This document shows, piece after piece, positions 552 to 21,113 of a stretch of 29,394 bases of DNA (its first letter is position 1; each line of letters begins with the position of its first letter). The translations under genes and the position numbers were made by a program. The stretch lies in IMG/VR virus record IMGVR_UViG_3300028840_005945, positions 1 to 29,394 of that record. One strand, given 5' to 3'. The stretch is from a virus. The notes beneath the pieces were generated by a model. It saw only the letters and a program-made list of their open reading frames with translations, did not search any database and had not been told where the DNA came from.

Positions 552-557
552 GGTTTC

Positions 558-569
558 AACGAAAGGGAA
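558..569 (+). promoter_or_regulatory. Extended RBS motif AACGAAAGGGAA, copy 1
   Basis: The motif lies six nucleotides from a GTG at 575. The same 12-mer occurs at 10417-10428 and 11405-11416, and shorter forms at 1936, 2610 and 3544, always just before a start codon. The GAAAGG core can pair with a CCUUUC 16S 3' end. Its exact antisense is in the hairpin loop at 11654-11671. This copy decides the choice of GTG 575 over the internal ATG at 659. Confidence 0.6.
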
Positions 570-1890: not shown

Positions 1891-1959
1891 ATGGCTAAGA
1901 AACTAATAGGGACATTTGATGGCGATTTGTCAACCAACGAAAGGAGACGAGTGGCGTGA
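1891..1959 (+). CDS. 22-residue micro-ORF (possible leader)
   Basis: An ATG at 1891 opens a short frame whose stop overlaps the next ATG as TGATG (1957-1961). The frame reads through the motif CCAACGAAAGG at 1934-1944. Translating it would place a ribosome across the next gene's leader, so it could be a coupling leader rather than a functional peptide. Support is positional only. Confidence 0.3.
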   Translation: MAKKLIGTFDGDLSTNERRRVA

Positions 1960-2314: not shown

Positions 2315-2631
2315 AACACATAGTTATTCAAATAGACGTTGACGGGGATTCGTGTGAGGGTTGTGACCTGTATCAATATTCAGCGTATCTGAATCAGTCG
2401 ATGTGTTCGGTTTTTGGCATGCGTATTGATCTCGATGAAAACGAAAATCCCCAACGCCTCCCCGAATGCCTAGCGGCTGAGATTTCCATTGAATGTGGAA
2501 CATGTAATTATTTTGGACAAAATGATTGTGATACATGCCATTGTGACTTAGCGGGGTTTGATGGTGAGCAATGCAGGGGCGATAACAGCTACAAACACTG
2601 GACCCCACCAACGAAAGGATACGAGCGATGA
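2311..2631 (+). CDS. Hypothetical Cys-rich protein
   Basis: 106 residues from ATG 2311 in ATGA overlap with the previous gene and with GGCGAAGGA upstream. A short extension to 2296 is possible. It has at least nine cysteines: CEGC near residue 16, one near 32, CGTC near 68, then three closely spaced and one near the end. These suggest a multi-metal or disulphide-rich fold. The last codons carry the CCAACGAAAGG leader motif for a following micro-ORF. No family recognised. Confidence 0.6.
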   Translation: MKHIVIQIDVDGDSCEGCDLYQYSAYLNQSMCSVFGMRIDLDENENPQRLPECLAAEISIECGTCNYFGQNDCDTCHCDLAGFDGEQCRGDNSYKHWTPPTKGYER

Positions 2632-3286: not shown

Positions 3287-3563
3287 ACGCTGGGTATTAC
3301 GCTCCGACACGGTGGCCGAGGAGGCCAGTCTGGCCCCCGGGGACGTTTGCAAGGGGCGGGAGTACTGGAGCAAGGGCACTAGGTTGTGCAAGGCGGTGGA
3401 GGTGGAAAGGCTGGAGGCCAAGTTCGCCGAATCGTGCCAGCTGAACGCCGAACTGAGCGGGCGGGACATTGACCAGCGGATGGAGATTGAGGAACTGCAG
3501 ACCAGAAACAACCGCCTGCGGGCGGAGGTGGCGGACCTGCAGAAACGAAAGGGTAACCAGTGA
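3273..3563 (+). CDS. Coiled-coil protein
   Basis: 96 residues from ATG 3273, with GGAGG eight bases upstream inside the previous gene. Roughly residues 45-92 form a strong coiled coil (VERLEAKF, then IEELQTRNNRLRAEVADLQ). The N-terminal part is short and basic. The last codons contain AACGAAAGGG (3544-3553), the leader for the next gene. Possibly a structural or scaffolding accessory protein; unassigned. Confidence 0.6.
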   Translation: MSEIRRWVLRSDTVAEEASLAPGDVCKGREYWSKGTRLCKAVEVERLEAKFAESCQLNAELSGRDIDQRMEIEELQTRNNRLRAEVADLQKRKGNQ

Positions 3564-6365: not shown

Positions 6366-7209
6366 GTTCCGCACCCTGAAGTTGACCCGCCCTATGATGC
6401 ACGGGGCGGTGGTGCGCCGCCTGCAGGAGTTGGGCGACCTGATTGGTTGCGACACAGGCCCCAACGACGGGATATTCGGCCCCGATACACAGGAGGCGGT
6501 CTACCAGATTCAGGCCAAGCTGGGCATCCTGCAGGACGGCATATGCGGCCCCGTCACCTGGCGGGCGTTGCTGGAGCACATAGACAATTCCTCGGGCGAC
6601 ACGCTGAACAGGTTCTTTGTGGACATACGGGGCGCCCACCCGGCGCCCAAGAACTACGGGCGCAAGCGCAAGCTTGCGGAAATTGAGGGCGTGACACTGC
6701 ATCAGACGGGGTGTGAGATGCCATCGAACCCCAGGGGCTGGGAACGGCTGAACGCTCATATCGGCGTGACGCAGGAGGGCAAGGTGGTGCTGGTGAATGA
6801 CTTCACCGACATGATTTGGCACGCCCAGGGCCTTTCCCAAAACACAATAGGCATTGAGTTCGAGGGCAACTTCCACGGCGTGCGGGGGCGCACGAACACG
6901 CTTTGGAAAGGGGGCGGTGGCCCGCATTACTTTAATTTGGCCATGGGCATGGCGGCCAACACCCTGTTCGATTATCTGACCCGCTGGTTCGCCGAGCGGA
7001 AATTGCGGTGGCAATTCATCAACGCCCACCGCCAGAGCAGTGACACCAGGAGGGGCGACCCGGGAAGCGAGGTGTGGAAGGGAGTGGCGTTGCCTTGGTG
7101 CGACCGCCTTGGGGGCGAGCAGATGGACGGGGGTGAGGGATACCATCTGAAAGAGGGGCGCGGGGTGCCAGGGGTGTGGAACAACGGACTTTACAAGACC
7201 AAATACTGA
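6358..7209 (+). CDS. Endolysin: peptidoglycan-binding plus Amidase_2 domain
   Basis: 283 residues from ATG 6358, with GGAGGAGG further upstream. Residues about 12-75 form a PG_binding_1 domain (VRRLQELG, then NDGIFGPDTQEAVYQIQ, then GPVTW). Residues about 85-250 form a zinc N-acetylmuramoyl-L-alanine amidase of the Amidase_2/PGRP type. Likely zinc ligands are H115 (TLHQTG), H224 (NAHRQ) and D234 (DPGSEVW), with the GIEFEGN strand at about 165-171. By family knowledge it cleaves the lactoyl-Ala bond of murein for host lysis. No signal peptide is visible, so it should need a holin. The adjacent genes are not clear holins. Confidence 0.88.
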   Translation: MNEFRTLKLTRPMMHGAVVRRLQELGDLIGCDTGPNDGIFGPDTQEAVYQIQAKLGILQDGICGPVTWRALLEHIDNSSGDTLNRFFVDIRGAHPAPKNYGRKRKLAEIEGVTLHQTGCEMPSNPRGWERLNAHIGVTQEGKVVLVNDFTDMIWHAQGLSQNTIGIEFEGNFHGVRGRTNTLWKGGGGPHYFNLAMGMAANTLFDYLTRWFAERKLRWQFINAHRQSSDTRRGDPGSEVWKGVALPWCDRLGGEQMDGGEGYHLKEGRGVPGVWNNGLYKTKY

Positions 7210-7256
7210 GCGGCCGTGGCTTTCGCGTTGCCATGGAAGAAGAAAAAGGAACGAAA

Positions 7257-7610
7257 ATGACGAACAAGAACGCTGTTGTTACCTGTGATGACGGGACCGA
7301 GGTTTCGGTCTATTGCGCCCATAAGGACCTTGTGCTGACCGAACTGGTGAAGGGCAACCCGGAAAACCCGAACCAGCACCCGCCGAACCAGATTGACCTG
7401 CTGGCCAAAATCATCCGACATCAGGGGTGGCGCAACCCCATAGTAGTCTCCACCCGCTCGAAGATGGTGGTGAAGGGGCACGGGCGCCTGCAGGCCGCCA
7501 GGGCCTTGGGGTGCGAAAGGGTGCCGGTGGATTACCAGGACTACGACAGCGCCGAGGCCGAGTTCGCCGACTTGCTGGCGACAACAAGCTGGCCGAACTG
7601 TCTCACATAG
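7257..7610 (+). CDS. ParB-like domain protein, 5' part of frameshifted ParB-methyltransferase
   Basis: Starts at ATG 7257 with AAAAGGA upstream. It reads as a ParB/Srx-type nucleotide-binding domain: NQIDLLAKIIRHQGWRNPIVV, then VVKGHGRLQAARALGCERVPV, then FADLLA, as in phage ParB-N domains fused to DNA methyltransferases. At 7578-7580 the frame should continue as DNKLAELS, a hallmark following this domain. That sequence is in the -1 frame from 7580. In the zero frame the protein ends nine codons later at TAG 7608. One missing base (GC for GCC) explains it. No slippery heptamer is present. It could be a real mutation or a sequence error. Confidence 0.75.
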   Translation: MTNKNAVVTCDDGTEVSVYCAHKDLVLTELVKGNPENPNQHPPNQIDLLAKIIRHQGWRNPIVVSTRSKMVVKGHGRLQAARALGCERVPVDYQDYDSAEAEFADLLATTSWPNCLT

Positions 7611-8629
7611 ACCAGGAGCTTGAACTGGCTGGCAGGGAATTTCTGGAGGCGGCCAATTTCGACCTCGAGTTGGCAGGCTTCGAGCTTGGGGATGGCGACG
7701 GCGAGGACGAGGACCCGTACGCCAGCGACCCGAGCATGGCGGGCAACCTACGGGAGCGGTTCATAGTGCCGCCCTTCAGCGTGCTGGACACCCGACAGGG
7801 GTATTGGCAGGAGCGCCGGAAGCATTGGCAGGCGGTAATCAATGACAAGGGCGAGACGCGGGAGCAGACCCTGTTCGCCGAGGACAGCCTGGGGGCCAAG
7901 ATTGGGACGGTGAGCATACTGGACGCCGTGCTGGCGGAGATTGTGGTCGAGTGGTTCGGTTTGCCCCATGGCAAGGCGTTCGACCCGTTCGCCGGTGACA
8001 CCGTGTTCGGCTTTGTGGCGGGCACCAAGGGACAGACCTTCACGGGGATAGAACTGCGTGATGCCCAGGCCAAAATCAATCAGATGCGGTGTTCAGATGC
8101 GGGGTTGCCCTGCACATACCACAACGACGACGGCCAGAACTTGCTCAAGTACATCCCCAACGAGAGCCAGGATTTGCTCTTTAGTTGCCCGCCCTATCTG
8201 GACTTGGAGAAGTACAGCGATGACCCCAGGGACTTGAGCAACATGTCGCACTCGGAGTTTTACACGGTTTACAGCGCCGTGTTCAAGGCCGCCTACACCG
8301 CCCTCAAGCCCGATCGGTTCGCTTGCGTTGTCACCTCCGAGGTGAGGGACAAAGACGGCCTGTACGCCGGTCTGGTGCCCAAAACCATACAAATAATGGA
8401 GGAGGCCGGGTTCAGGTACTACAATGAACTGATTCTTGTCAACTCCGCGGGTACCGTGCCTATAAGAGTGACCAAGAGCATGAACGCCGGTCGCAAGGTG
8501 GGGCGGGTGCATCAGAACGTCCTGGTGTTCTACAAGGGCGACCCCAAGGCCATCGGGCAGACGTTCCCCGAGTTTCTGGACGAGGACGCGGCGTACGCCA
8601 CGGAAGGCGGTGATTACGATGAAGGCTAG
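7580..8629 (+). CDS. DNA methyltransferase (3' part of split ParB-methyltransferase)
   Basis: Reads in the -1 frame relative to the ParB-like part, beginning DNKLAELS. No well-placed ribosome site opens it; an ATG near 7738 lacks a Shine-Dalgarno. Motif I is DPFAGDT, followed by FTGIEL. Motif IV is SCPPYLDLEKY, about 75 residues later. This is the order of amino-methyltransferases with motif I before motif IV. The C-terminal end, AGRKVGRVHQNVLVFYKG, is typical of phage adenine/cytosine-N4 methyltransferases. With the ParB part it would be about 457 residues. It probably modifies phage DNA against restriction; the target base and site are unknown. An AdoMet-related gene follows directly. Confidence 0.75.
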   Translation, partial: DNKLAELSHIDQELELAGREFLEAANFDLELAGFELGDGDGEDEDPYASDPSMAGNLRERFIVPPFSVLDTRQGYWQERRKHWQAVINDKGETREQTLFAEDSLGAKIGTVSILDAVLAEIVVEWFGLPHGKAFDPFAGDTVFGFVAGTKGQTFTGIELRDAQAKINQMRCSDAGLPCTYHNDDGQNLLKYIPNESQDLLFSCPPYLDLEKYSDDPRDLSNMSHSEFYTVYSAVFKAAYTALKPDRFACVVTSEVRDKDGLYAGLVPKTIQIMEEAGFRYYNELILVNSAGTVPIRVTKSMNAGRKVGRVHQNVLVFYKGDPKAIGQTFPEFLDEDAAYATEGGDYDEG

Positions 8630-8903: not shown

Positions 8904-9133
8904 CCGAGCCGGATGTCAAGTCGGAGATAATGCGGCTGGCGCAGGAGCGGGCCAGAGCCGGGAAGCCACCCATGGCCGACGCCGAGATACTTGACCGCTG
9001 GAAGCGGATACGGGACGGGGCGCTGGCGTGGCTAGAGCAATCCGTGCTGTACGCCAAGGGCGTGAAGGAGGCGGAGCAACTGTACAACAGGGCGTGCAGG
9101 GAGATAGCGCAGATGGAGCGTCGTATCCGCTGA
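8900..9133 (+). CDS. Hypothetical helical protein
   Basis: 77 residues, start in ATGA overlap with the SpeD-like gene and the last gene before a regulatory gap. It is entirely helical by inspection (KSEIMRLAQERARAG, then LEQSVLYAKGVKEAEQLYNRAC), basic, and without metal-binding motifs. No family recognised. Its coupling to the SpeD-like gene makes it a candidate partner, but no other evidence links them. Confidence 0.6.
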   Translation: MTEPDVKSEIMRLAQERARAGKPPMADAEILDRWKRIRDGALAWLEQSVLYAKGVKEAEQLYNRACREIAQMERRIR

Positions 9134-9148
9134 AATCGGTGTGTAAAC

Positions 9149-9165
9149 TTTGCGGAGTACGCAAA
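9149..9165. promoter_or_regulatory. Operator-like palindrome TTTGCG-N5-CGCAAA
   Basis: A perfect 6-bp inverted repeat with a 5-base spacer sits 16 bases after the end of the last gene and 9 bases before the promoter-like element at 9174. Size and position fit the operator of a dimeric repressor. The LexA-like protein (4387) is a candidate binder in this window, though the half-site differs from known LexA boxes. Confidence 0.4.
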
Positions 9166-9173
9166 TCTTTGCA

Positions 9174-9201
9174 CTGGTGAAAATATCCTAAAAAGTACAA
9201 T
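9174..9201 (+). promoter_or_regulatory. Candidate promoter (CTGGTG-N16-TACAAT)
   Basis: The recurring motif GCACTGGTGAAAATAT (9171-9186) supplies a -35-like CTGGTG. A good -10-like TACAAT follows at 9196-9201. The same box spacing occurs at 524-551 and 9315-9342. It would drive the genes from 9389. Confidence 0.45.
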
Positions 9202-9235
9202 CTTTCCAATCCGATAGACCAATTACAGAATAAGT

Positions 9236-9271
9236 GTGCGCAAATTTTAGCGAATTAGCGTTTTAGCGCAC
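9236..9271. repeat. Tandem octamers inside a short inverted repeat
   Basis: Three contiguous octamers, TTTTAGCG, AATTAGCG and TTTTAGCG, occupy 9245-9268. The flanks GTGCGC (9236-9241) and GCGCAC (9266-9271) are perfect inverted repeats. Iteron-like arrays of this kind can bind a replication initiator or a regulator; no initiator gene is visible here, so the role is open. Confidence 0.45.
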
Positions 9272-9314
9272 GGGCTTGCGACCGTGTATCGTGTTGAGAT
9301 AATTGGATTGTGTA

Positions 9315-9342
9315 TTGGTAAAAATATTGGTACAAGTATTGC
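9315..9342 (+). promoter_or_regulatory. Candidate promoter (TTGGTA-N16-TATTGC)
   Basis: Third copy of the TATTGGTAAAAATAT motif (9313-9327), with TTGGTA and a -10-like TATTGC at the same 16-base spacing. It lies about 45 bases upstream of the ATG at 9389 in an AT-rich gap. With the element at 9174 it may form a tandem promoter. Confidence 0.4.
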
Positions 9343-9388
9343 AGTAATAACAGGTATGAACCGCAACGCAACAGCAAAGGGAAGCAAG

Positions 9389-9649
9389 ATGAAAAACACA
9401 AACAATGAATTAATGGTTGAGAGGATTGACTGGCTGGCAAACACCAACAAGGTGGCGGCGTTGCATTGCCTGGAGACGGCGAAGGCCAGCATCGAGGAGA
9501 TAATAATGGGCATACAGGCGGGGCACGCCTACCACGGCGGCATCCACAACGTGCTCACGCAGTTGGGCCTCGCTGAGAACAACATGGCGAAATGCCAGTC
9601 CATGGGCGAGGCCGCCCGCTGGGTTGCGCTGGCTCAAGAGGAGGAGTGA
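9389..9649 (+). CDS. Hypothetical protein
   Basis: 86 residues from ATG 9389, seven bases after AAAGGG in a variant of the recurring leader (GCAAAGGGAAG at 9374-9384). The sequence is helical with LANTNKVAALHCLETAKASIEEIIMGIQAG, rich in Ala and Met. No motif or family recognised. It is first in the run after the regulatory gap, a position typical of early-expressed accessory genes. Confidence 0.65.
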   Translation: MKNTNNELMVERIDWLANTNKVAALHCLETAKASIEEIIMGIQAGHAYHGGIHNVLTQLGLAENNMAKCQSMGEAARWVALAQEEE

Positions 9650-9650
9650 C

Positions 9651-10043
9651 ATGGATATTGAAACCGCGTTGGAATTGAAATTGGCCAATATTTTTGACGG
9701 GCGGGACGCCGAAATACTGGTGGGCGACGGATTTCTGGTGTTCGAGGTGGATGGCGATGAGGTTGCGGACATAACGTTTGCCACGCTGGACGACATGTGG
9801 GAGTGGGCGCATACCGTGCACCGCGCCAAGGAACGGGGGCTTTGCGCCCCCCGCCGCAGGTACCGCGCGCAACGCCGCCCAGGCTGGAGCGCGTGCCAGA
9901 TGGCGGGGTGGGTGTACACATACGAGCACCCCCGATACGGCTGGGTTGAACTGCGGAACGCGGACCTGCGCCGCAGGTTGCATGAACTGGCGGACGCCAG
10001 GGGCGGCGACGTGTGCGAGGTTGTGGGGGCGGTGCTGATATGA
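9651..10043 (+). CDS. Hypothetical protein
   Basis: 130 residues from ATG 9651 with GAGGAGG upstream. The first half is acidic with alternating hydrophobic residues (AEILVGDGFLVFEVDGDEVADITF), suggesting a beta sheet. The middle is strongly Arg-rich; the C-terminal third contains GWVYTYEHPRYGWVELR. No family recognised. Start overlaps nothing; the stop overlaps the next ATG as ATGA. Confidence 0.6.
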   Translation: MDIETALELKLANIFDGRDAEILVGDGFLVFEVDGDEVADITFATLDDMWEWAHTVHRAKERGLCAPRRRYRAQRRPGWSACQMAGWVYTYEHPRYGWVELRNADLRRRLHELADARGGDVCEVVGAVLI

Positions 10044-10396
10044 AAAACCTCACTGAAAAACAAAGACAATGCCTTTATTTGCTGTTGGCCCACGGGCACC
10101 TCACCCGCGGGTACAGCGTGACCGGGTGGACTTGGAAGGGGCGGGCGCCCAAGGAGCGCACCATAAAGGCGCCCACCGTGCGCTCCATGGTGGCCAAGGG
10201 CCTGGCGCGGGTGGATGGCGACTTGAAATGGGGGCCTTGCCATCGGAAATTGCCGGTGTTGCGGCCCACGGAAAAGGGGCTGGCGCTGGCCATGCGGATG
10301 ATGCGACTGGTGGAGTGCCCGCGTTGCAGGGCCTCGCATTGGGTGGCCAACCCCAATCACGGGCGCTGGGGCCTTTGCCAGCGTTGCCAGAGTTAA
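10040..10396 (+). CDS. Winged-helix-like protein with zinc ribbon
   Basis: 118 residues, start in ATGA overlap. LTEKQRQCLYLLLAHGHLTRG followed by APTVRSMVAKGLARVD and LPVLRPTEKGLAL is the helix pattern of a MarR-type winged helix with wing. The C-terminal 30 residues hold CPRC and CQRC pairs, a zinc ribbon. It is probably a small DNA-binding regulator or accessory protein. The match is by pattern, not by a named family. Confidence 0.6.
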   Translation: MKNLTEKQRQCLYLLLAHGHLTRGYSVTGWTWKGRAPKERTIKAPTVRSMVAKGLARVDGDLKWGPCHRKLPVLRPTEKGLALAMRMMRLVECPRCRASHWVANPNHGRWGLCQRCQS

Positions 10397-10399
10397 CAG

Positions 10400-10414
10400 G
10401 GCGCCAGCGGCGCC
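10400..10414 (+). promoter_or_regulatory. GGCGCC hairpin before leader motif
   Basis: GGCGCC-AGC-GGCGCC folds as a perfect 6-bp stem with a 3-base loop, two bases before an AACGAAAGGGAA leader (10417-10428). No U-tract follows, so it is not an ordinary terminator. It could protect or gate the ribosome site of the gene at 10433. Confidence 0.35.
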
Positions 10415-10416
10415 AC

Positions 10417-10428
10417 AACGAAAGGGAA
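10417..10428 (+). promoter_or_regulatory. Extended RBS motif AACGAAAGGGAA, copy 2
   Basis: Four bases before ATG 10433. Extended outward, 16 bases (10416-10431) are perfectly complementary to the loop of the hairpin at 11636-11689. This is the longest match among the leaders. Confidence 0.65.
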
Positions 10429-10432
10429 AGAC

Positions 10433-10639
10433 ATGAGCAGGGAAGACGAGTGGAAAAGCGTGTGCGAGCTTGGGGAACTGGCCCGCAAGGGTCGCATCCC
10501 GCAAAGGGCATACAACAACGCCGAGCGGGAGTACTTTGACAGGTACCCCAACAACGTGGACAAGGGCGGGAGGACCTGGATTTACCCCGTGAGCGCAAGG
10601 GTGTGGGACCAGGAGACAAGGGTGGTGGACCATGGATAG
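10433..10639 (+). CDS. Hypothetical protein
   Basis: 68 residues from ATG 10433 behind the extended leader motif. Charged, with a helical N-terminal half (EDEWKSVCELGELARKGRIP) and an aromatic C-terminal part. It overlaps the next gene by eight bases. No family recognised. Confidence 0.6.
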   Translation: MSREDEWKSVCELGELARKGRIPQRAYNNAEREYFDRYPNNVDKGGRTWIYPVSARVWDQETRVVDHG

Positions 10640-10838
10640 GACGCAACTGCTGGCGCTGGTGGCCAAGGCGAACAGGATAAACGTGTGGGTGGGGCACGCC
10701 CGCATCTATCTGCGGGTATCCAAGGCTGAGTTCCTGCGGGGCATGGCCAGACGGGACCGATCGGAGCCTGGGGTGGACCAGTTTTACAACCCGACCAAGG
10801 TGCACTATGACCACGGCGGGAACCTCTGGGTGTCCTGA
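10632..10838 (+). CDS. Hypothetical protein
   Basis: 68 residues from ATG 10632, overlapping the previous gene by eight bases and sharing one base with the next (TGATG). VWVGHARIYLRVSKAEFLRGMARRD suggests a small alpha/beta fold. No Cys and no known motif. Confidence 0.55.
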   Translation: MDRTQLLALVAKANRINVWVGHARIYLRVSKAEFLRGMARRDRSEPGVDQFYNPTKVHYDHGGNLWVS

Positions 10839-11344
10839 TGTGCAGGCGCAGGCGAAAAGAGGGGCTGTGGGCCAGGAGCGAGGACGCCCCGGAATATCAA
10901 CTGCTACCCGCCAGCCGCGGGCCAACGGGGCGGCCCCGCATATGCAACAGCGCGGACATGGTGATACAGATAGGGCGGCATCTGACGGGCGCCGAAAAGC
11001 GCCAGATGAGGATGCAGGAGTTCTTCGGGGCGGTGGCGCTGAACAACAAGAACGAGATTTTGGGCCTGCGGATAGTGGCGGTGGGGGCGGCGAACGGGTG
11101 CATGGTGAATCCCGTGGACGTGTTCAGGTACCTGCTGGAGACGACGGCCTGCAGGTGGGCCGCCTTCCATAACCACCCCAGCGGTGACCCCACGCCCAGC
11201 CCCGATGACGTGGCGCTGACCAGACGCCTGCAGGAAGCGGGAAAGTTAATGGGATTGCAACTGCTGGAGCATGTGATAACCGGCCCCGAAATGTCACCCG
11301 ACAATTACACCAGCCTGCGGGACAGCGGGATACTGGTGGGATGA
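10838..11344 (+). CDS. RadC-like JAB/MPN domain protein
   Basis: 168 residues from ATG 10838. From about residue 35 it follows the RadC C-terminal (MPN+/JAMM) domain: E61 (MQEFF), HNHPSGDPTPSPDD at 111-124 (H111, H113, S121, D124), then LTRRLQEAGKLMGLQLLEHVI. All expected JAMM zinc residues are present. The N-terminal UPF0758/HhH part of full-length RadC is absent, as is common for phage and plasmid copies. The domain is metallopeptidase-like; the molecular role of RadC proteins is unresolved, and copies on mobile elements are often linked to anti-restriction or recombination genes. Confidence 0.82.
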   Translation: MCRRRRKEGLWARSEDAPEYQLLPASRGPTGRPRICNSADMVIQIGRHLTGAEKRQMRMQEFFGAVALNNKNEILGLRIVAVGAANGCMVNPVDVFRYLLETTACRWAAFHNHPSGDPTPSPDDVALTRRLQEAGKLMGLQLLEHVITGPEMSPDNYTSLRDSGILVG

Positions 11345-11351
11345 ACCCGCC

Positions 11352-11370
11352 GCATTGCGTTTTTTAATTG
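11352..11370 (+). promoter_or_regulatory. GCATTGCGTTTTTTAATTG element
   Basis: Near copy of the element at 2691-2708. It lies in the 76-base gap between the RadC-like gene and the gene at 11421, upstream of another AACGAAAGGGAA leader. Recurrence in two gene-free gaps is the evidence; it may be a promoter upstream region or a regulator site. Confidence 0.35.
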
Positions 11371-11404
11371 CGTGGCGCGCCGCTGGTGTGGTACCGTTGC
11401 GCTT

Positions 11405-11416
11405 AACGAAAGGGAA
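11405..11416 (+). promoter_or_regulatory. Extended RBS motif AACGAAAGGGAA, copy 3
   Basis: Four bases before ATG 11421. It decides that start over an upstream in-frame one. 13 bases (11405-11417) are complementary to the loop of the hairpin in the same gene's 3' region. Confidence 0.65.
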
Positions 11417-11420
11417 AACC

Positions 11421-11636
11421 ATGATAGATTTCACCGTTGAGGAGTTGAGGGCCATATACGGCGCCCTGCGGGAACAGCAGGGGGCGCTGATTGAGGAGGC
11501 GCTGGAGCACGTGGACGACAGGGCGCACCTGATGGACGTGGCGGAGGACCAATCCGTCAATTTCGTCACCAGCCTGAAGGTGCGGGTGATGCTCAAGCGG
11601 ATGGGCGTGGATGTTGGGGTTGATTTGGAAAAATAG
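11421..11636 (+). CDS. Hypothetical protein
   Basis: 71 residues from ATG 11421. Helical and acidic: FTVEELRAIYGALREQQGALIEEALEHVDD, then a basic VRVMLKRMGVDVG. No family recognised. Its leader carries the AACGAAAGGGAA motif and its 3' flank begins directly with a hairpin whose loop is antisense to that motif, so it may be autoregulated. Confidence 0.65.
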   Translation: MIDFTVEELRAIYGALREQQGALIEEALEHVDDRAHLMDVAEDQSVNFVTSLKVRVMLKRMGVDVGVDLEK

Positions 11637-11689
11637 GCCGGGCGGGGTGGGGGTTCTTTCCCTTTCGTTGGACCCTCCCCGCCCTGGCC
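11636..11689 (+). ncRNA. Candidate antisense hairpin RNA against the leader motif
   Basis: The arms 11636-11651 and 673-689 of the 11.6 kb region pair as GGCC/GGCC, GGG/CCC, CGGGG/CCCCG and GGG/CCC: 15 GC pairs with one bulge (T11685) and one T-T mismatch. The loop holds TTCTTTCCCTTTCGTTGG (11654-11671), the exact reverse complement of CCAACGAAAGGGAAAGAA. It therefore matches 16 bases at 10416, 13 at 557 and 11405, 11 at 1934 and 2608, and 10 at 3544. All these lie at ribosome-binding sites. No promoter of its own or terminator is evident, so it may act as part of the 11421 transcript. It is an inference from sequence alone. Confidence 0.45.
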
Positions 11690-11706
11690 GTTCTTGAAAA
11701 ACGGCC
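11686..11706 (+). promoter_or_regulatory. Second hairpin, GGCCGTT/AACGGCC
   Basis: A perfect 7-bp stem with a 7-base loop. Its left arm reuses 11686-11689, the last four bases of the preceding hairpin, so the two cannot both be fully formed. It could be an alternative fold (switch) or simple structural flank. Confidence 0.4.
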
Positions 11707-11722
11707 GCGCTTGCAATAGAAT
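11694..11722 (+). promoter_or_regulatory. Candidate promoter TTGAAA-N17-TAGAAT
   Basis: Good sigma-70-like boxes at optimal 17-base spacing, upstream of the gene at 11737. The expected start would fall inside that gene's AAAGGGA ribosome site (11724-11730), giving a very short or leaderless message, which weakens the call. Confidence 0.35.
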
Positions 11723-11736
11723 GAAAGGGATGAGAC

Positions 11737-12006
11737 ATGGAAAAACCGGTGCTTACAAAGACGGCGGAATGCGCGCTGAAGGAATTGCGGGCGGACGCCA
11801 TAACGTTGCGTAACGAATCGCTGGCGGTTATCATAGCCGCCGATTGCGGGGTGCTGGAGAAGACCAGCATGTCGGTCACCGCATGGAGCAACTGGTTCGA
11901 ATCGCAGGCGGCCGCGGTTAAAACGGCGGCCGAGATTGACCGCGAGGAGCGGCGCCTGATGGGCCTGTTGCACTTGACGGCCAAGGACTTGGAGGGCCAT
12001 AGATGA
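11737..12006 (+). CDS. Hypothetical protein
   Basis: 89 residues from ATG 11737 with GAAAGGGA seven bases upstream. Helical throughout, Ala- and Glu-rich, with a basic patch near EIDREERRL. No family recognised. It overlaps the lipoprotein candidate as ATGA and begins the gene run leading into the packaging genes. Confidence 0.62.
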   Translation: MEKPVLTKTAECALKELRADAITLRNESLAVIIAADCGVLEKTSMSVTAWSNWFESQAAAVKTAAEIDREERRLMGLLHLTAKDLEGHR

Positions 12007-12281
12007 TTGAAAAACTGTTCGAGACTTTGACCATAATTGGCGCCGCCATACTCCTGCTACTGCTGGAGGGGTGCGTGGGGCAGTGCGTGAAATACGAGAC
12101 CAGGTGCAGGGGGGACGTGGTGCAGATTTGCAACGCCGATGAGTGGTGGGAGGATGTGGTCAACTGCGCCGTTATAGACCCCGGGGAATGGCGTTGCGTG
12201 GAGGGCGATACGGACACGCAACCGGACACGGGGACGGAGCCGCTGGCGGAATGCGCCAGGGTGGGAGACAGTGACACATGA
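12003..12281 (+). CDS. Putative Cys-rich lipoprotein
   Basis: 92 residues, start in ATGA overlap. Hydrophobic N-terminus (IIGAAILLLLLEGC) followed by Cys looks like a signal with lipobox, though Glu at -2 is unusual. The mature part has evenly placed cysteines (CVKYETRC, VVQIC, VNC, WRC) and a Thr/Asp-rich tail, suggesting disulphides outside the cytoplasm. A spanin or superinfection lipoprotein is possible by location and topology, but no partner Rz-type gene is clear. Confidence 0.6.
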   Translation: MIEKLFETLTIIGAAILLLLLEGCVGQCVKYETRCRGDVVQICNADEWWEDVVNCAVIDPGEWRCVEGDTDTQPDTGTEPLAECARVGDSDT

Positions 12282-12838
12282 AACAGATAACCAAGTACAA
12301 TGTTCAAAGGTTCCTGGGCGCCGCCAAGCGCAAGTACAACGTGCGCATAGTCACCAAGGGGAGCGCCCTGTACGGAATCATCAAGTGGGCCGTGGACGCC
12401 ATGGACATAGGGGCGGTGGACAAGTGGCTGAGCCGCTGGTCCATAACCATAGGGCGCCTGATTTGGCTGAGCTTCAAGCCCGGAGTGGGGGACGAGGCGG
12501 AACTGAAGGACCAGATAACCACCATCTGCCACGAGCTAATCCACGCCCAGCAATGGAAAAGGGACAAGGCCAGTTTCGTGTTCAGGTACGTGTTCAGCCA
12601 ATCCCGCCGCTCCCATTACGAGGCGGAGGCGTTGCACGCCAACGTGGAGATGACTTACGCGCTGGGCGGGAAGCCCGACTACAGGGCGATCGCCGAAATG
12701 CTCAAGTCGTACCTGGTGCGCTCCTCCGATATTGAGGTGACCAAGAAGCACCTGCTTATAGTGGATAGGGTGGCCAAGGTCGGGGGCCGCACGGAGGAGG
12801 TCACTAAATGGGCGTGTCAATGGTGGGGAATTTCATAA
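12278..12838 (+). CDS. Putative HExxH metallopeptidase-like protein
   Basis: 186 residues, start in ATGA overlap. TTICHELIHAQQWKRD at residues 81-96 contains a clear HExxH (H85, E86, H89). The sequence SHYEAEALHANVE (about 112-124) can supply a third, Glu, zinc ligand, as in families with an HExxH followed by YExEA. The N-terminal 75 residues are alpha/beta. It is probably cytoplasmic (no signal). By motif it should bind zinc. Substrate unknown; a proteolytic role in morphogenesis or host take-over is only a guess, since a separate HK97-type protease is present at 17106. Confidence 0.65.
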   Translation: MKQITKYNVQRFLGAAKRKYNVRIVTKGSALYGIIKWAVDAMDIGAVDKWLSRWSITIGRLIWLSFKPGVGDEAELKDQITTICHELIHAQQWKRDKASFVFRYVFSQSRRSHYEAEALHANVEMTYALGGKPDYRAIAEMLKSYLVRSSDIEVTKKHLLIVDRVAKVGGRTEEVTKWACQWWGIS

Positions 12839-12957
12839 AACAGGCCGCCAGGATGGGCGCCGCCGCCCGCGACCCCCAATTCAGGAGGGCGCTGGCGCGC
12901 GGCGTGGTGACCATAGCCTGGCGAGCGTTGAGGAGGAGTATAGGTTATGTCAAATGA
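12808..12957 (+). CDS. 49-residue basic protein
   Basis: ATG 12808 has an ideal AGGAGGT six bases upstream, inside the end of the preceding gene. The protein is strongly basic and helical (FIKQAARMGAAARDPQFRRALARGVV), with many Arg and Ala. It overlaps the next gene by 11 bases. The quality of the ribosome site argues for a real gene. Function unknown. Confidence 0.5.
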   Translation: MGVSMVGNFIKQAARMGAAARDPQFRRALARGVVTIAWRALRRSIGYVK

Positions 12958-13315
12958 GAAGCACACGCACGCCACGAGCGAGGCGATGGCCATGTTGCGG
13001 CGCCTGGTGGACGCCTGCGGCAAGGTGAAGGCCCAGATAGAGGGCACGGGCAAGGTGATGGACGCCACGGCGCTGGCCTCCCTTCACCTCTCCGCCTCCA
13101 TAAACAGGCTGAACGCCTTGCGCAAGGACGCCCCTGGGGCGCCCGTGTCGGCCCCGCCGCCCGAGCCAGCCAAGGACAAGAAGGAGGAACCGAAGAAGGA
13201 TGACGTTGGCGGACAGGCGCCCGAGACGCCAGACGAGGCCACGCCGCCCGCCAACAAGAAGAAGATGGGCGGCAAGAAGAAGGCGGCCACCAAGAAGAAG
13301 CCCGCCAAGAAATAG
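12947..13315 (+). CDS. Lys/Pro/Ala-tailed basic protein
   Basis: 122 residues from ATG 12947, with GAGGAGGAG upstream. Residues 1-62 are helical (MAMLRRLVDACGKVKAQIEG). Residues 63-122 are low complexity: Pro/Ala/Lys/Glu, then repeated KKK and KKP blocks like those in H1-type or nucleoid-associated tails. It should bind nucleic acid or acidic surfaces nonspecifically. It sits directly before the large terminase, where a small terminase might be expected, but it shows no Terminase_2 pattern. Its role in packaging or DNA condensation is an inference. Confidence 0.6.
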   Translation: MSNEKHTHATSEAMAMLRRLVDACGKVKAQIEGTGKVMDATALASLHLSASINRLNALRKDAPGAPVSAPPPEPAKDKKEEPKKDDVGGQAPETPDEATPPANKKKMGGKKKAATKKKPAKK

Positions 13316-13318
13316 GCG

Positions 13319-14764
13319 ATGAACGAACTGCAATCGTGGCTCGCCGAGCGCCGCGTTGCCAGCCCGCACGCCATACCGGCGGAGCACAGGGCGGATTTCG
13401 AGCGAACGTTCAGGGACACGGTGGTGTTGTGGCCCCAGCCGGGGGGCCAGGAGCGGTTCCAGAACTGCTCGGCCGACATCGCCCTTTACGGGGGCGAGGC
13501 TGGCGCTGGCAAATCGTGGTCACTGCTGTTCGACCATTTGAAGTGGATACACATTCCCAATTATTCAGGCGTGGTGTCCCGCAAGACATACAGCCAGATA
13601 TTCGACGCCGGTGGGCTGTGGGACGAGGCCAAGGAGCTTTTCGGGCTGTTCAGGGGACGGGACACCAAGGGCGACAAGCCCAAGTTCGTCTTCCCCTCGG
13701 GCGCCAAGATATTCTTCAAGCACAGTCAGCACGCGGCCAGAATAGCGGAGTATTGGCAGGGGCTGCAAAGCCCCGTGATTTCCATAGATGAGGTCACGCA
13801 GTTCGAGCAACGCGAGTTCCAGTACATAATGAGCCGCAACCGTAGCATGACGGGCATCAACAGCTACGTGCGGGCCACTTGCAACCCGGACCCGAACAGC
13901 TGGGTCAAGAAAATGATTGAATGGTGGCTGGCGCCGGATGGGTACGTCATACCCGAGCGCAGTGGGGTGGTGCGCTATTTCGTGGTTAAGGATGACGCGT
14001 TCGTGTGGGCCGACACCAGGGAGGAACTGGTGGAGCGGTTCGGCCCCAAGACGGAGACCAAAAGCTTCACGTTCATAAGGGGGTATCTGGATGACAACGT
14101 GAAACTACTGGAGAAGGATCCGGGGTACAGGGCCAGTCTGGAGAATCTGTCGGCGGCGGATTACAAGGCGCTGTGTCAGGGCAATTGGAACGAGATTGAC
14201 AACCCGAACGCCCTGTTCACCCGCGCCAACTTCAACAAGAACCGCGTGGAAAGCATGGATTTCGAGCGCATGGAGCGCACGGTGGTGGCGATCGACCCGC
14301 AGGGAAGCAAAGGTGAGAAGACGGATGACACGGGCATAGTGGTCGCGGGCAGACTGGGGCGGGACATATACGTGTTCGCGGACAAGACAGGTAATTACAA
14401 GCCCATAGAATGGGCTAAAGTGTCCTGCGGGTTGTATGACTTCTACAAAGCGGATAGAATCATAGCTGAAAAGAACTTCGGCGGTGACATGGTTGAGAGC
14501 ACCATAAACACCTACCGAGGCGATATATATCCCAAGCTCGTCACGGCCACCAAGGGCAAAGCCGTGCGGGCGGAACCGGTGGCGACCCTGTATGAGCAGG
14601 GATTGGTTCACCATGTGGGCCATAACCTCAAGGAGCTAGAGGACGAGATGGCGAATTACCAACCCGGGCAAAGCAAATCGCCGAACAGAATGGACGCCCT
14701 GGTGTGGGCGGTGCACGAGTTGGCGATAAAACAGCCCGCCGAACCCAGAATTAGGATGTTGTAA
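13319..14764 (+). CDS. Terminase large subunit
   Basis: 481 residues from ATG 13319. ATPase domain: Walker A GGEAGAGKS at 58-66, Walker B VISIDE at 153-158, coupling motif ATCNP at 186-190. Nuclease domain of RNase H type starts near 322: D326 in VVAIDPQGS, IIAEKNFGGDMV, and MDALVWAV near the end. By family knowledge it cuts concatemeric DNA and pumps it into the prohead. Length is normal for the family. It leads the structural operon; the portal starts one base after its stop. Its small subunit partner is at the left edge of the window in reverse orientation. Confidence 0.93.
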   Translation: MNELQSWLAERRVASPHAIPAEHRADFERTFRDTVVLWPQPGGQERFQNCSADIALYGGEAGAGKSWSLLFDHLKWIHIPNYSGVVSRKTYSQIFDAGGLWDEAKELFGLFRGRDTKGDKPKFVFPSGAKIFFKHSQHAARIAEYWQGLQSPVISIDEVTQFEQREFQYIMSRNRSMTGINSYVRATCNPDPNSWVKKMIEWWLAPDGYVIPERSGVVRYFVVKDDAFVWADTREELVERFGPKTETKSFTFIRGYLDDNVKLLEKDPGYRASLENLSAADYKALCQGNWNEIDNPNALFTRANFNKNRVESMDFERMERTVVAIDPQGSKGEKTDDTGIVVAGRLGRDIYVFADKTGNYKPIEWAKVSCGLYDFYKADRIIAEKNFGGDMVESTINTYRGDIYPKLVTATKGKAVRAEPVATLYEQGLVHHVGHNLKELEDEMANYQPGQSKSPNRMDALVWAVHELAIKQPAEPRIRML

Positions 14765-14765
14765 G

Positions 14766-16220
14766 ATGCCAGGATTTAGGGAGTTCGCCAAGTCGCTAGT
14801 GTCGGCGCCGCAGGCCGAGGAGCTAAAGTGGTATTATGACGCACCGGCGGAGGGGCCGCCCGCCATGGAGATGAAAAGCGCGGGTTCGCCCCTGCTGGCC
14901 TCCAGTTTCGTCGGGCACCTGCAGGATACGGACAACTGGGACCTTTCGTTCGCCGTGCTCATACAGTATTTTGAAAGGTGCGCCCCTTTCAGCGACGCCG
15001 TGAACCGCATAGCCGAGGGGTTCGCCGAGTTGCCGCTGTACGTGCGCAGGAAAAGCACGGGCGAGATGATGGCGAAACATCCGCTCCTCACCCTGTTGCA
15101 GTACCCGAACGACAGCATGAGCCAGGCGGATTTCCTGTTGCACTTCGCATCCATGTTCCTTATAACCGGCAACCCCTACATCCAGTCGTTCGGTCCCATC
15201 ACCAGGCCGCCCGCCAGTCTGGACATATTGAACCCCCAGCACAGCACCGTCAACCCCGATCGCATGGGGGACATGGATACCATCCGCATCCAAAGCGAGT
15301 TCATGAACGTGGTCTTCAGGGGTGACAACATAGACGGGCGCAAGCGGTTCAGGGCCAAGTCGGACGATAACGAGTTGTGGCCCGTCTTCAGTTTCAACCC
15401 CCGCAGAGGCACCCGCCATTTCTTCGGCACCCCCATAGCCAAGCCGCTTTACAACGACATTGAGCAGTACATATACAGCGGCCGCCACAACAAGTCCCTC
15501 CTGAAGCGGGGCGCCCGCCCCGGCGGCGTCTTCAGCACCAACGACAACAAGTACCCGCTGACCGACGCCCAGTTCAGGCGCATGCAGGACCAGGTTGATT
15601 TGTATTTCGTGGGCGCCGACAACGCTGGCCGCCCCATGCTTTTCGAGAACGTGAAGTACGAGGAGACCATAATCAATAACAGGGATATGGATTACAAGAC
15701 CCTGACGCTGAACACCAGAACGGCCATATACCGTCAGTTCAAAATTCCGTTGCCCACGGTGGAGCAGGACGCCCAGACGTTCAGCAATTACCAGACCAGC
15801 CAGGTGGCGGAGTACGACAAGGCCATCTTGCCCGTCGCGCGTTTCCTTTTGGGCCAGTTGACATCGGCGCTGATGTACCGCTTCGAGAAGGACTGGCGGG
15901 ATTACGAGCTTTGGTACAACGAGAAGGAAATACCCGAGTTGGCGCCCCGCCGCATGGAGGTGGTGAAGACGCAGAAGGAAATCAACGTCAGCACCGTCAA
16001 CGAGTTGCGGGTGTTGCTGGGGCTTGAGGAGCGGGATGGCGGGGACGTTATACTGCGACCGGCGAACGAGATACCGGCGCTGGAGGGGCTGGGGGAGGAG
16101 CCACCGGCGGCCGAGGGGAAAGGGAACGGCGCCACCCGCAAGGCGCTGGAGGCGGCGGTGGACTACCGGGGGCGCCCCGTGTTCACCAAGGACGAGATTG
16201 ACCACTTGACCAGGGCCTAG
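14766..16220 (+). CDS. Portal protein (HK97-like family)
   Basis: 484 residues from ATG 14766. The pattern ERCAPFSDAVNRIAEGFAELPLYV, then HPLLTLLQYPNDSMSQADFLLHFASMFLITGNPYI, then the stem/clip region with NSRHNKSLL-like and ARPGG segments, followed by FKIPLPTVEQDAQTFSNYQ, is typical of Phage_portal family proteins. It forms the dodecameric channel at the capsid vertex, docks the terminase and starts head assembly. Position after the large terminase supports this. The C-terminus is a low-complexity acidic/Gly tail. Confidence 0.9.
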   Translation: MPGFREFAKSLVSAPQAEELKWYYDAPAEGPPAMEMKSAGSPLLASSFVGHLQDTDNWDLSFAVLIQYFERCAPFSDAVNRIAEGFAELPLYVRRKSTGEMMAKHPLLTLLQYPNDSMSQADFLLHFASMFLITGNPYIQSFGPITRPPASLDILNPQHSTVNPDRMGDMDTIRIQSEFMNVVFRGDNIDGRKRFRAKSDDNELWPVFSFNPRRGTRHFFGTPIAKPLYNDIEQYIYSGRHNKSLLKRGARPGGVFSTNDNKYPLTDAQFRRMQDQVDLYFVGADNAGRPMLFENVKYEETIINNRDMDYKTLTLNTRTAIYRQFKIPLPTVEQDAQTFSNYQTSQVAEYDKAILPVARFLLGQLTSALMYRFEKDWRDYELWYNEKEIPELAPRRMEVVKTQKEINVSTVNELRVLLGLEERDGGDVILRPANEIPALEGLGEEPPAAEGKGNGATRKALEAAVDYRGRPVFTKDEIDHLTRA

Positions 16221-16222
16221 AC

Positions 16223-17008
16223 ATGGCCACCCAAGCGGAAAAGGAGAGGGCGGCGGCCAGGCAACTGCGCATGAAGTTGCGGCTGGAGAGCGAGTTGCGG
16301 GGCAAGGTGCGCCGCCTGCTGGGGCGCCAGAACGCCAGGTTCCTGTCCCTGTTCCAGAGCACCGGCCTGACGCTGAACACCGAGGAGTTCAGGCCCGAAC
16401 TGTTCAACATACTGCTGTCCCATTACGAGAAGGCGGGCGCCCGATTTCAGCGGCTGGTGCTGAAGGAAATCAACAGGGCGCTGAAGGATGCGGGCGAAAG
16501 ACAGATAGGCGAAAACAGCCCCGAGATGGTCAGCCTGCTCCTGATCCTGGCCTCCTCCAGCGCCCGCGCCTCGGTGGACCAGATATTGGGCACGTCGCAA
16601 CGCCAGATTCTGGCGGCGCTGGCCCGCAACGATCGGGACGCCGCCAAGGCCTTCCAGGAACTGCAGGCGTACACGGCGGCCAGGGCCGCCAGCATAGCGG
16701 CCACGGAGACGCAGAAGGCCACGGAGGGCACAAAGGCGGCGACGGTGCGGGAGGCGCAGGGCATGGTCGCCGGGGGCCTGACGGCGGCGGCGCAACTGGA
16801 GGCGATAAAGGAGTGGGTGCCAAGGAACGACAGCAGGGTTAGACCGGCGCACGAGGCCGCCCGCTTCCAGCGCCAGCCGGTGCGCCTCCCTTTTGTGGTG
16901 GGCGGGGAACTGCTGATGTTCCCGGGTGACTGGTCGCTGGGGGCAAGCCCCGGCAACCTGGTCAATTGTCGTTGCGTGGCCCTGTACACCTTCGGCGTTC
17001 TGCTCTAA
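16223..17008 (+). CDS. MuF-like minor head protein
   Basis: 261 residues from ATG 16223. The C-terminal third, WVPRNDSRVRPAHEAARFQ followed by PGDWSLGASPGNLVNCRC, matches the SPP1 gp7 / Mu gpF head morphogenesis family (conserved DxRxR-x-H and NCRC motifs). The N-terminal two thirds are long helices. Such proteins are minor capsid components that sit near the portal and may be injected. No toxin domain is attached to the C-terminus. Order portal, MuF, protease, capsid is conventional. Confidence 0.85.
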   Translation: MATQAEKERAAARQLRMKLRLESELRGKVRRLLGRQNARFLSLFQSTGLTLNTEEFRPELFNILLSHYEKAGARFQRLVLKEINRALKDAGERQIGENSPEMVSLLLILASSSARASVDQILGTSQRQILAALARNDRDAAKAFQELQAYTAARAASIAATETQKATEGTKAATVREAQGMVAGGLTAAAQLEAIKEWVPRNDSRVRPAHEAARFQRQPVRLPFVVGGELLMFPGDWSLGASPGNLVNCRCVALYTFGVLL

Positions 17009-17105
17009 TCATACACGTTAATTGCTGGTCACCGTAATTCATTACGTGTCGGAACGCTTGAAATCTGGGATACTGGTGGCGTACTGTTAACGAATGGAGC
17101 TTGCC

Positions 17106-17810
17106 ATGCAGACAGCGAAGGACAGAAGCTACAAACCGGACAACGCGCCCGTGTGCGTGCCTTTCGAATGCAAGGCCCTGCCAACGGTGGAGGACCCCGA
17201 TTTCTTCTATTTCGAGGGGTACGGCTCCACATGGGGCAACATAGACCGCTATGATGACGTGATTGTGAAGGGGTGCTTTGATGAAAGTCTGAAGGAGTTG
17301 ACGCCGGATTTGCGGTGGCAACACAATTTCGATGACATCATAGGCGTGTTCGTGGATATACGCACGGATGACAGGGGCCTCTTCGTGAAGGGCAAGATGC
17401 CCAAGGCGGACACGCTGGTGGCCGGGCGGGTCATACCGCAGATGAAAGTCGGCTCCGTCCGCTCCATGTCCATAGGTTTCCGTGTAAAGGAATTTGATTA
17501 TGATGAGGAGGGAATCCGCATCATAAAGCGCGCCAACCTGTACGAGATTTCCCTTGTTTCCCAGCCGGTGAACCCCAAAGCGTCGGTCACCGACATGAAG
17601 AAGTTCGAGTTGGGGGACGTGGAAAAGGTGCGTACGCGGCGCGAATACGAGGACCTACTGAGGGATTCAGGGGCGTTCTCGCGCAAAAGCATAGTGTACC
17701 TTGCCAGCCGTTTTCAGGAGGCGGGGCCGAGCGATTCGGCGGCGCCCGAGGACACGGCGGAACTGGTGCGCGAACTGAAGCAATTCGCCAAAAAACTAAA
17801 AACTTTGTGA
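17106..17810 (+). CDS. Prohead protease (HK97 family)
   Basis: 234 residues from ATG 17106 with TGGAGC upstream; a start at 17094 in the same frame is less well placed. The HK97 prohead protease (U35) pattern is clear: FEGYGSTWGNIDRYDDVIVKG, WQHNFDDIIG (catalytic His), VRSMSIGF (catalytic Ser), YEISLVSQPVNPKA (catalytic Glu). It should mature the head by removing the N-terminal delta domain of the capsid protein encoded next. The C-terminal 60 residues are helical. The 97-base gap before it holds AACGAATGGAG, a weaker version of the leader motif. Confidence 0.9.
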   Translation: MQTAKDRSYKPDNAPVCVPFECKALPTVEDPDFFYFEGYGSTWGNIDRYDDVIVKGCFDESLKELTPDLRWQHNFDDIIGVFVDIRTDDRGLFVKGKMPKADTLVAGRVIPQMKVGSVRSMSIGFRVKEFDYDEEGIRIIKRANLYEISLVSQPVNPKASVTDMKKFELGDVEKVRTRREYEDLLRDSGAFSRKSIVYLASRFQEAGPSDSAAPEDTAELVRELKQFAKKLKTL

Positions 17811-17819
17811 GGTAAGAAA

Positions 17820-19052
17820 ATGTCAGACCAAGACAAGAAAAATCAGGAATACGCGGAGGCGATAAACGCCGTGCGCGAGGCCCACGATGCCATCGAGAAG
17901 AAATCGGCCAAGTTCGAGGGCGGCATCGCCGAACTCGAGGAGAAGATGCAAAGGGCGAACAAGGCCCTGGACAAGATGGAGGAGGAGAACCAGAAGCTAA
18001 TCGGCCAGTTGGCCGAGGAGCGCAAGGGCGCCGAGGCGCAGGCCGAGGCCGTGAAGGAACTCGAGACCAAGGTCGCCAAGCTGGGTCAAATCCCCGCCAG
18101 CGCCGGGGGCGAGAAGGCCCAGCGGCTAGAGGCCGAAATCAAATCCCTGCGGGCGTTCGCCGAGGGCAAGACCGAGGAGCAGATGGAGAAGGCGGGCTTG
18201 GAGACCAAGTACCTGCGCAGTGACAGCAACCCGGACGGGGGCTTCCTGATGCGGGACGCGTATGATGACCAAATCATCAAGCCCATCACCGAAATCAGCC
18301 CCGTGCGCCAGGTGGCCAGGGTCAAGACCATTGACGCCCTGGCGGTGGAGATGGCGGCCCGCGAAACGCTGGTCACGGCGTACTGGACGGGCGAGGGCGA
18401 GGATGGGACTCCGTCCCATAGCACCTATCGCCAGCCCCGCATCCCCGTGCACAGCATGATGGTGGTCACCGAGGCCACCAACACCGCTTTGAACGGTTCC
18501 TTCTGGGACCTCGAGACGGAAATCACCGGCGACTTCGTGGAGGCCAGGCAACTGCTGGAGGGGCAGGCTTTCGTGAACGGCAACGGCGTGAAGAAACCCA
18601 CCGGATTCCTGCAGAGCGGGCTGACCGAAATCAACTCGGGCGAGGCGAACACCTTCGGTTTCGACGTCCTGATTGGCCTGACGGGCGAGTTGAAGGACGG
18701 ATATATGCCCATGTATTGCATGAACAGGCGCACACTGGCACACATCCGCACCCTCAAGGACGATGTCGGAAACTACATCTGGAGGGCTGGCAACGTGGGG
18801 GCGGGCGTGCCCAACCAAATCAATGGCGACCCGTACGTGCTGATGAACGACATGCCTGACATCGCGGCCGACGCGGTGCCGGTGGCCTACGCCGATTTCA
18901 TGAAGATGTACTGCGTCGTGGACGCCTTCAACGCCATCTTCCTGCGCAACCCCTACATCAAGAGGGGCTTCGTGGAGTTCAGCGTTGAAAGCTGGGTCGG
19001 TGGACAGGTGGTTCTCAAGGAGGCGGGCATACTGCTTAAGTGCGCCGTCTAA
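17820..19052 (+). CDS. Major capsid protein (HK97 fold)
   Basis: 410 residues from ATG 17820, with GAGGT upstream. Residues about 1-108 are a coiled-coil, Lys/Glu-rich delta (scaffold) domain. From about 118 comes the HK97 core: SNPDGGFLMRDAYDDQIIKPI, then SPVRQVARVKTID, then a TSEATN-like segment VVTEATNTALNGSFWDLE, and later GDPYVLMNDMPDIAADAVPVAYADF. The protease upstream probably cleaves between the two parts. By fold it builds the icosahedral shell. The gene is followed directly by an intrinsic terminator. Confidence 0.93.
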   Translation: MSDQDKKNQEYAEAINAVREAHDAIEKKSAKFEGGIAELEEKMQRANKALDKMEEENQKLIGQLAEERKGAEAQAEAVKELETKVAKLGQIPASAGGEKAQRLEAEIKSLRAFAEGKTEEQMEKAGLETKYLRSDSNPDGGFLMRDAYDDQIIKPITEISPVRQVARVKTIDALAVEMAARETLVTAYWTGEGEDGTPSHSTYRQPRIPVHSMMVVTEATNTALNGSFWDLETEITGDFVEARQLLEGQAFVNGNGVKKPTGFLQSGLTEINSGEANTFGFDVLIGLTGELKDGYMPMYCMNRRTLAHIRTLKDDVGNYIWRAGNVGAGVPNQINGDPYVLMNDMPDIAADAVPVAYADFMKMYCVVDAFNAIFLRNPYIKRGFVEFSVESWVGGQVVLKEAGILLKCAV

Positions 19053-19079
19053 ACGGGAACGAACGCGGATAACGGAACA

Positions 19080-19106
19080 CCCCCCGCCTGGCGGGGGGCG
19101 TTTTTT
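19080..19106 (+). terminator. Rho-independent terminator after the capsid gene
   Basis: CCCCCCGC and GCGGGGGG (19080-19087, 19091-19098) form a perfect 8-bp GC stem with a 3-base loop, followed by CG and six Ts. It ends the head transcript, or reduces read-through into the neck and tail genes to favour capsid protein. Confidence 0.92.
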
Positions 19107-19139
19107 GAAAACAGAAACTTTGAGTAAAGAGGTCACAAG

Positions 19140-19481: not shown

Positions 19482-19535
19482 ACGGCACGAACTGGCGCGG
19501 CGCGGCCCAAAATCCTTTGTCCGTTGACCAAAGCG

Positions 19536-19564
19536 TTGCGTCGCCGTGTCGCGCCGTATATTTT
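19536..19564 (+). promoter_or_regulatory. Candidate promoter TTGCGT-N17-TATTTT
   Basis: In the 94-base gap between the capsid-associated gene and the neck genes. Boxes at optimal spacing; the upstream copy TTGACC (19524) is too far from a -10. It would give a short leader before ATG 19576 (AAGGGG upstream). Fits a second transcript for neck and tail after the terminator at 19080. Confidence 0.35.
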
Positions 19565-19575
19565 AAGGGGCCAGC

Positions 19576-20274: not shown

Positions 20275-20275
20275 T

Positions 20276-21110: not shown

Positions 21111-21113
21111 GGC

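Follow-up and report, generated by a model that had tools for sequence, protein, structure and literature searches.

Why would a phage carry, in the loop of a hairpin, the exact antisense of the sequence at which ribosomes are predicted to bind its own early genes? The question is raised by a 29,394-base contig of a tailed phage (IMG/VR record IMGVR_UViG_3300028840_005945, referred to in its entirety as the window), in which a hairpin directly 3' of a small gene, gene 11421, presents in its loop the antisense of AACGAAAGGG, the ribosome-binding sequence of six early genes. An initial annotation made from the window's letters proposed a phage antisense RNA that blocks or gates translation of these genes, acting in cis on gene 11421 and in trans on the others. 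The comparisons described here lead us to regard the hairpin as probably an antisense RNA element that represses early genes by pairing with their ribosome-binding sites; its transcription, its pairing in the cell, and its repressive effect are what we infer from sequence comparison. The proposal gains from conservation of the loop, from concordant change of the loop and one leader in a related phage, and from a second RNA family with the same arrangement, whereas two of its points call for amendment: the shared leader is in itself no sign of a regulon, and gene 10433, not gene 11421, offers the best sequence match.

The hairpin loop and the leaders it matches

The GC-rich stem was recovered as annotated, with two helices separated by a bulge (Table 1), and the hairpin has an energy z-score of -2.6. 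The 18-nucleotide (nt) loop is exact as an antisense sequence but is not fully open: 13 nt (TTTCCCTTTCGTT) are unpaired in the minimum-energy fold, and the TTC/GGA ends form weak closing pairs of an inner helix. All six leader matches listed in the initial annotation proved exact. When up to three mismatches are allowed, the 18-nt loop sequence has two matches in the window (itself and positions 10415 to 10432) against 0.03 expected, and it matches six leaders by at least 9 nt, compared with a mean of 0.27 for shuffled loops. Duplex energies between loop and leaders, a check that the initial annotation had proposed, are lower than the background median of -16.0 kcal/mol for the three leaders given in Table 1.

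The leader itself requires no special explanation. Copies of AACGAAAGG stand before start codons in large numbers in unrelated phages, grouped in one module per contig, and this leader is a ribosome-binding-site class of many phages. Since a consensus ribosome-binding sequence is expected at many starts, six leaders alone are no evidence of a regulon or a shared regulator. Six coincident hits at start codons, which the initial annotation held could not be random, are what any consensus ribosome-binding sequence would give. The feature that needs explanation is the antisense loop and not the common leader.

Many small early genes precede the terminase, portal, and capsid genes, which begin at 13.3 kb. 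Leader copies occupy the ribosome-binding position of six nonstructural genes in the window and of at least four in a related contig, G001, and of no structural genes; AACGAAAGGG was not found before the late genes at 13319 to 24843 of the window or before the late genes of G001.

Only one further plus-strand site in the window complements an equal number of leaders, a 9-nt antisense copy at 14942, in the portal gene. We rejected this site as an antisense element, as it is coding and lacks conservation in the relative. That the portal copy is not kept there implies that a 9-nt antisense match can arise by chance; matches of 16, 13, and 13 nt within one hairpin loop are not chance products. Also rejected was a gene on the minus strand for which the hairpin sequence would serve as ribosome-binding site, as no start codon follows it in the window. 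Rfam 15 covariance models returned no family at the gathering score for the window or G001, with weak microRNA scores falling far below threshold, and annotated phage records held no DNA match to positions 9000 to 14000 of the window.

Concordance of loop and leader in a related phage

Relatives were sought through the terminase, the capsid, and genes 12278, 11737, and 10433, and only G001, a 42-kb contig with 73% DNA identity to the window across the structural part, spans the hairpin region (locus L010). A hairpin occupies the same position there (L010 8288 to 8351), flanked by the homologues of genes 11421 and 11737. Its stem has a different sequence with pairing kept (z-score, -3.5), and its loop core, TTTCCCTTTCGT, is identical. 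This retention of the loop while the stem diverges supports the antisense interpretation.

Where the two loops do differ, one leader differs with them. The G001 loop carries CTTTCGTGG, with one T fewer than CTTTCGTT in the window, and the leader with the longest loop match in both phages is that of gene 10433, at 16 nt in the window and 14 nt in G001. The loop differences between the window and G001 (CAACG/CACG and GGGAAAG/GGGAAAA) are mirrored in that leader, and swapping the loops between the phages reduces the match to 12 nt in both. Such joint change of loop and leader is what base pairing would be expected to produce, and this one comparison suggests, as the antisense interpretation predicts, that the two interact; the initial annotation had held that a loop change in related phages should be answered by a leader change, and for gene 10433 in this pair it was. 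On these sequence grounds, gene 10433 is the best-supported partner. Complementarity to several targets is also kept between the relatives, as would be expected at the sequence level of an antisense RNA acting in trans.

If this interpretation is right, the hairpin RNA would be carried on, or released from, the 3' end of the gene 11421 transcript. Its loop would pair with the AACGAAAGGG leaders, and best with that of gene 10433, covering the Shine-Dalgarno core and blocking ribosome access. A set of early genes would thereby be lowered jointly, possibly at the onset of late expression, while late structural genes, with other or weaker sites, would escape.

Antisense loops in other phages

Five leader-using contigs share an intergenic element, R1, with the apical loop CTTTCGTT; a terminator hairpin and a T run usually come next. 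Its scaffold reads GGTGC..CTA..TAAAGC..AGCAGCC with a 3' block GCCCGCAA..GAGGGTA, and a terminator is often present. When IMG/VR was searched for the scaffold alone, with no constraint on the loop, at least 120 stretches matched. Among the matches listed, at least 112 loci have the full scaffold, 106 of these 112 hold CTTTCGTT in the free loop, and the 106 antisense loops sit in 25 different variable hairpins; same-strand AACGAAAG leaders occur on 100 of the 106 contigs with an antisense loop and on none of the 6 without (Fisher P = 4e-7, for related contigs whose counts are not independent). Compensating pairs are found in the R1 hairpins, for example AGAG/CTCT, ATGG/CCAT, and ACGG/CCGT. Leaders occur at 0.54 per kb on the R1 strand and at 0.013 per kb on the opposite strand; across 77 other phage loci the figure is 0.009. 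R1 sites include L256:16703-16860, L252:10685-10840, L250:7445-7605, L253:1236-1400 (minus strand), L255:456-620 (minus strand), and L286 to L400.

Like the window hairpin, the R1 elements have CUUUCGUU in an apical loop that lies on the same strand as the AACGAAAG leaders and is antisense to them; the window loop likewise holds CTTTCGTT, and one R1 member (L344) has 16 nt, CCTTTCGTTGGACCCT, in common with the window hairpin. They differ in being free-standing, gene-like RNAs with a conserved scaffold and often a terminator after it, so that in R1 phages the RNA would appear to be a gene of its own, whereas the window hairpin lacks the scaffold. Neither the R1 model nor the scaffold matched the window or G001, and R1 elements had no match in Rfam 15. 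R1 is a widespread RNA family, separate from the window hairpin and carried by unrelated, uncultured phages. The presence or absence of the R1 antisense loop and the leaders together further supports the antisense interpretation.

Another parallel is offered by the Start-Associated Sequences (SAS) of cluster K mycobacteriophages. These highly conserved sequences mark the ribosome-binding sites of many genes, all of them nonstructural, and four K1 phages carry one reverse-orientation copy without a gene start (PMC3203893). The published accounts consulted, PMC3203893 among them, term the role of SAS unknown and mention no hairpin or antisense role. We found that the reverse copy in K1 genomes forms a hairpin loop, CCTCCTATCC, in a mostly unannotated gap near the right end, at about 58,540 to 58,740 of the Angelica record. 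The loop has the same sequence in twelve phages; pairing in the stem amounts to 92%, and its covariation is modest, with some compensatory changes. The hairpin lies at L222:38613-38668, with homologues at L223 to L228, L235, and L261 to L264, and falls inside annotated gp92 in Angelica. SAS and the window leaders are alike in being near-identical repeats at the ribosome-binding position of nonstructural genes and in having an antisense copy within a hairpin loop, but their sequences (GGGATAGGAGCCC and AACGAAAGGG, respectively) are unrelated. In Microbacterium phage AnnaSerena, which has SAS-like leaders, examination of 49.7 kb revealed no reverse copy.

An unrelated phage, G003, has a terminator hairpin (L244:3247-3300) after a long structured noncoding stretch, with loop TTTCCTTTCGTG followed by six T residues and a 12-nt antisense match to one leader; this single case is suggestive. 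The R1 and G003 elements had no DNA match in annotated phage records. Taken together, the combination of antisense loops with matching leaders appears, by sequence, to be wider than this phage.

Two known systems offer mechanistic parallels. In the C4 antisense RNA of phages P1 and P7, the loops of hairpins complement stretches close to a ribosome-binding site, and its target is its own linked immunity transcript. The window loop differs in fitting a ribosome-binding-site class common to many genes, and the window hairpin had no Rfam match at the gathering threshold. Bacterial small RNAs with single-stranded C/U-rich loops bind the Shine-Dalgarno sequences of many mRNAs and block translation. 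The window hairpin resembles them in its single-stranded CU-rich loop, its multiple predicted targets, and the proposed translational block; it differs in that its complementarity reaches past the Shine-Dalgarno core into a phage-specific flank and in that its predicted targets are phage genes.

Competing explanations and implications

Several observations weigh against an antisense role. The concordant change of loop and leader rests on one pair of phages, G001 being the sole relative at the region. In G001, the loop and the leader of the gene 11421 homologue match over only 7 nt, apart from G-U pairs; the best sequence match belongs to gene 10433 and not to gene 11421, the cis target of the initial annotation. 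A 16-nt duplex is too long for a loop of 13 to 18 nt, so that either the inner stem opens or the match is used in part. Leader-using phages show no overall enrichment of antisense 8-mers (15, compared with 15 and 19 for control words); the antisense signal is one of position and conservation, not of total 8-mer number. Among mycobacteriophages with SAS, the hairpin persists in Ekdilam (Amginevirus) and in Unicorn and Shandong1 (Unicornvirus), but with altered loops that do not match their unchanged SAS leaders. The R1 counts, finally, are weakened by kinship among the contigs.

The alternative that survives best, which we nonetheless consider unlikely, is that the hairpin is mainly a transcription terminator or 3'-end protector of gene 11421 ahead of the next promoter, with an incidental loop. 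It sits between a stop codon and a promoter-like sequence in both phages, and the G001 hairpin is followed by GATTTGATATTTTT, a weak T-rich tail. In the window, no T run follows position 11689 (CCGTTCTTG), unlike in the canonical terminator CCCCCCGCCTGGCGGGGGGCGTTTTTT found 3' of the major capsid gene (19078 to 19106), a loop of 13 to 27 nt is unusual for a terminator, and conservation of the loop amid stem change is left unexplained. A double role in termination and antisense pairing is possible.

Less probable still is a local switch confined to read-through transcripts, in which the loop would pair with the ribosome-binding site of gene 11737, some 50 nt farther downstream, while transcripts from an intervening promoter escape, a logic resembling that of some T4 late genes. 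Both phages have a promoter-like sequence between the hairpin and gene 11737 and keep 10 to 11 pairs, including one G-U. Of all the leaders, that of gene 11737 nevertheless has the poorest match (exact over 8 nt, at -18 to -19.5 kcal/mol against the background median), and a switch of this kind would leave unexplained why gene 10433 and the first early gene have longer ones.

We give little credence to the other possibility raised by the initial annotation, that a protein binds double-stranded ACGAAAGGGA in leaders and hairpin alike. The motif is identical in both, and repeated operator-like sites occur in many phages, but the leaders keep ribosome-binding-site spacing and the R1 antisense block forms part of an RNA hairpin loop encoded on the same strand as the leaders. 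A DNA-binding site is further disfavored because the hairpin conserves its structure and not its stem sequence. Least credible is a small inverted duplication of a leader, caught without function between GC-rich arms: the portal-gene copy shows that short copies arise, but the loop is kept in a 73% identical relative despite a replaced stem and recurs in unrelated phages.

Table 1. Positions in the window of the hairpin, the leaders that it matches, and adjacent features
Feature	Position	Strand	Remarks
Hairpin	11636..11689	+	15 pairs (8 + 7) with a 2-nt bulge; starts right after the stop codon of gene 11421
Loop TTCTTTCCCTTTCGTTGG	11654..11671	+	Antisense of ribosome-binding consensus; core also in L010
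Leader of gene 10433	10416..10431	+	16-nt loop match, longest in the window
Leader of early gene at GTG 575	557..569	+	13-nt match; -31.5 kcal/mol; GTG 575 is the best reading of the start
Leader of gene 11421	11405..11417	+	13-nt match; -24.5 kcal/mol; hairpin at 3' end of this gene
Leader, start 1956/1959	1934..1944	+	11-nt match
Leader, ATG 2629	2608..2618	+	11-nt match; open reading frame (ORF) of only 11 codons
Leader of gene at GTG 3560	3544..3553	+	10-nt match
Leader AATGAAAGGGA of gene 11737	11720..11730	+	Additional, weaker leader adjoining the hairpin downstream, about 50 nt 3' of the loop; 8 nt exact, one G-U; -18.4 kcal/mol; L010 alike
Gene 10433	10433..10639	+	68 amino acids, no known family; owner of best-matching leader
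Gene 11421	11421..11636	+	71 amino acids, no known family; directly 5' of the hairpin
Promoter-like TTGAAA-17-TAGAAT	11694..11722	+	Right after the hairpin; consensus match only, count not above chance
Stretch with GCATTGCGTTTTTTAATTG	11345..11400	+	Upstream of gene 11421; possible promoter or operator; similar stretch before the L010 homologue, by inspection

Other features of the neighborhood may bear on regulation. The position in G001 equivalent to the promoter-like sequence after the hairpin has a similar one, TTGATA-17-TAATAT. Words of the form TTGCRTTTTTAAAT, repeated at 2670 to 2720 and 11350 to 11370 and also present upstream of the gene 11421 homologue in G001, are a candidate phage promoter or operator. 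The noncoding stretch at 9161 to 9383, 77% identical to L010 positions 7040 to 7266 and containing repeated ACTGGTAAAAATAT-like words that recur at 520 to 550, is probably a promoter or control region. Within 7257 to 8629, a ParB-like ORF overlaps the next ORF, a DNA methylase, out of frame near 7576, and the first ORF continues in frame in G001; the overlap may be a frameshift or a genuine difference. A RadC/JAB-domain gene (10838 to 11344) lies between genes 10632 and 11421 and is absent there in G001. As to the host, a capsid search of genomes gave no match and a terminase search gave distant relatives only.

Phages are thought to time their genes mainly through promoters and transcription factors. 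If the antisense interpretation is true, one RNA could control many genes in translation through a single ribosome-binding-site class. More tentatively, and at somewhat less than even chances, several unrelated lineages may have combined a dedicated early ribosome-binding sequence with an antisense-loop RNA as a regulon switch that turns early translation off, an arrangement that would have evolved more than once and of which the K1 SAS would be one instance. The antisense interpretation offers a testable answer to the role of the cluster K SAS, and to the reverse copy that some of these phages carry, and it draws attention to R1 as a family of phage RNAs that is widespread and matches nothing in Rfam.
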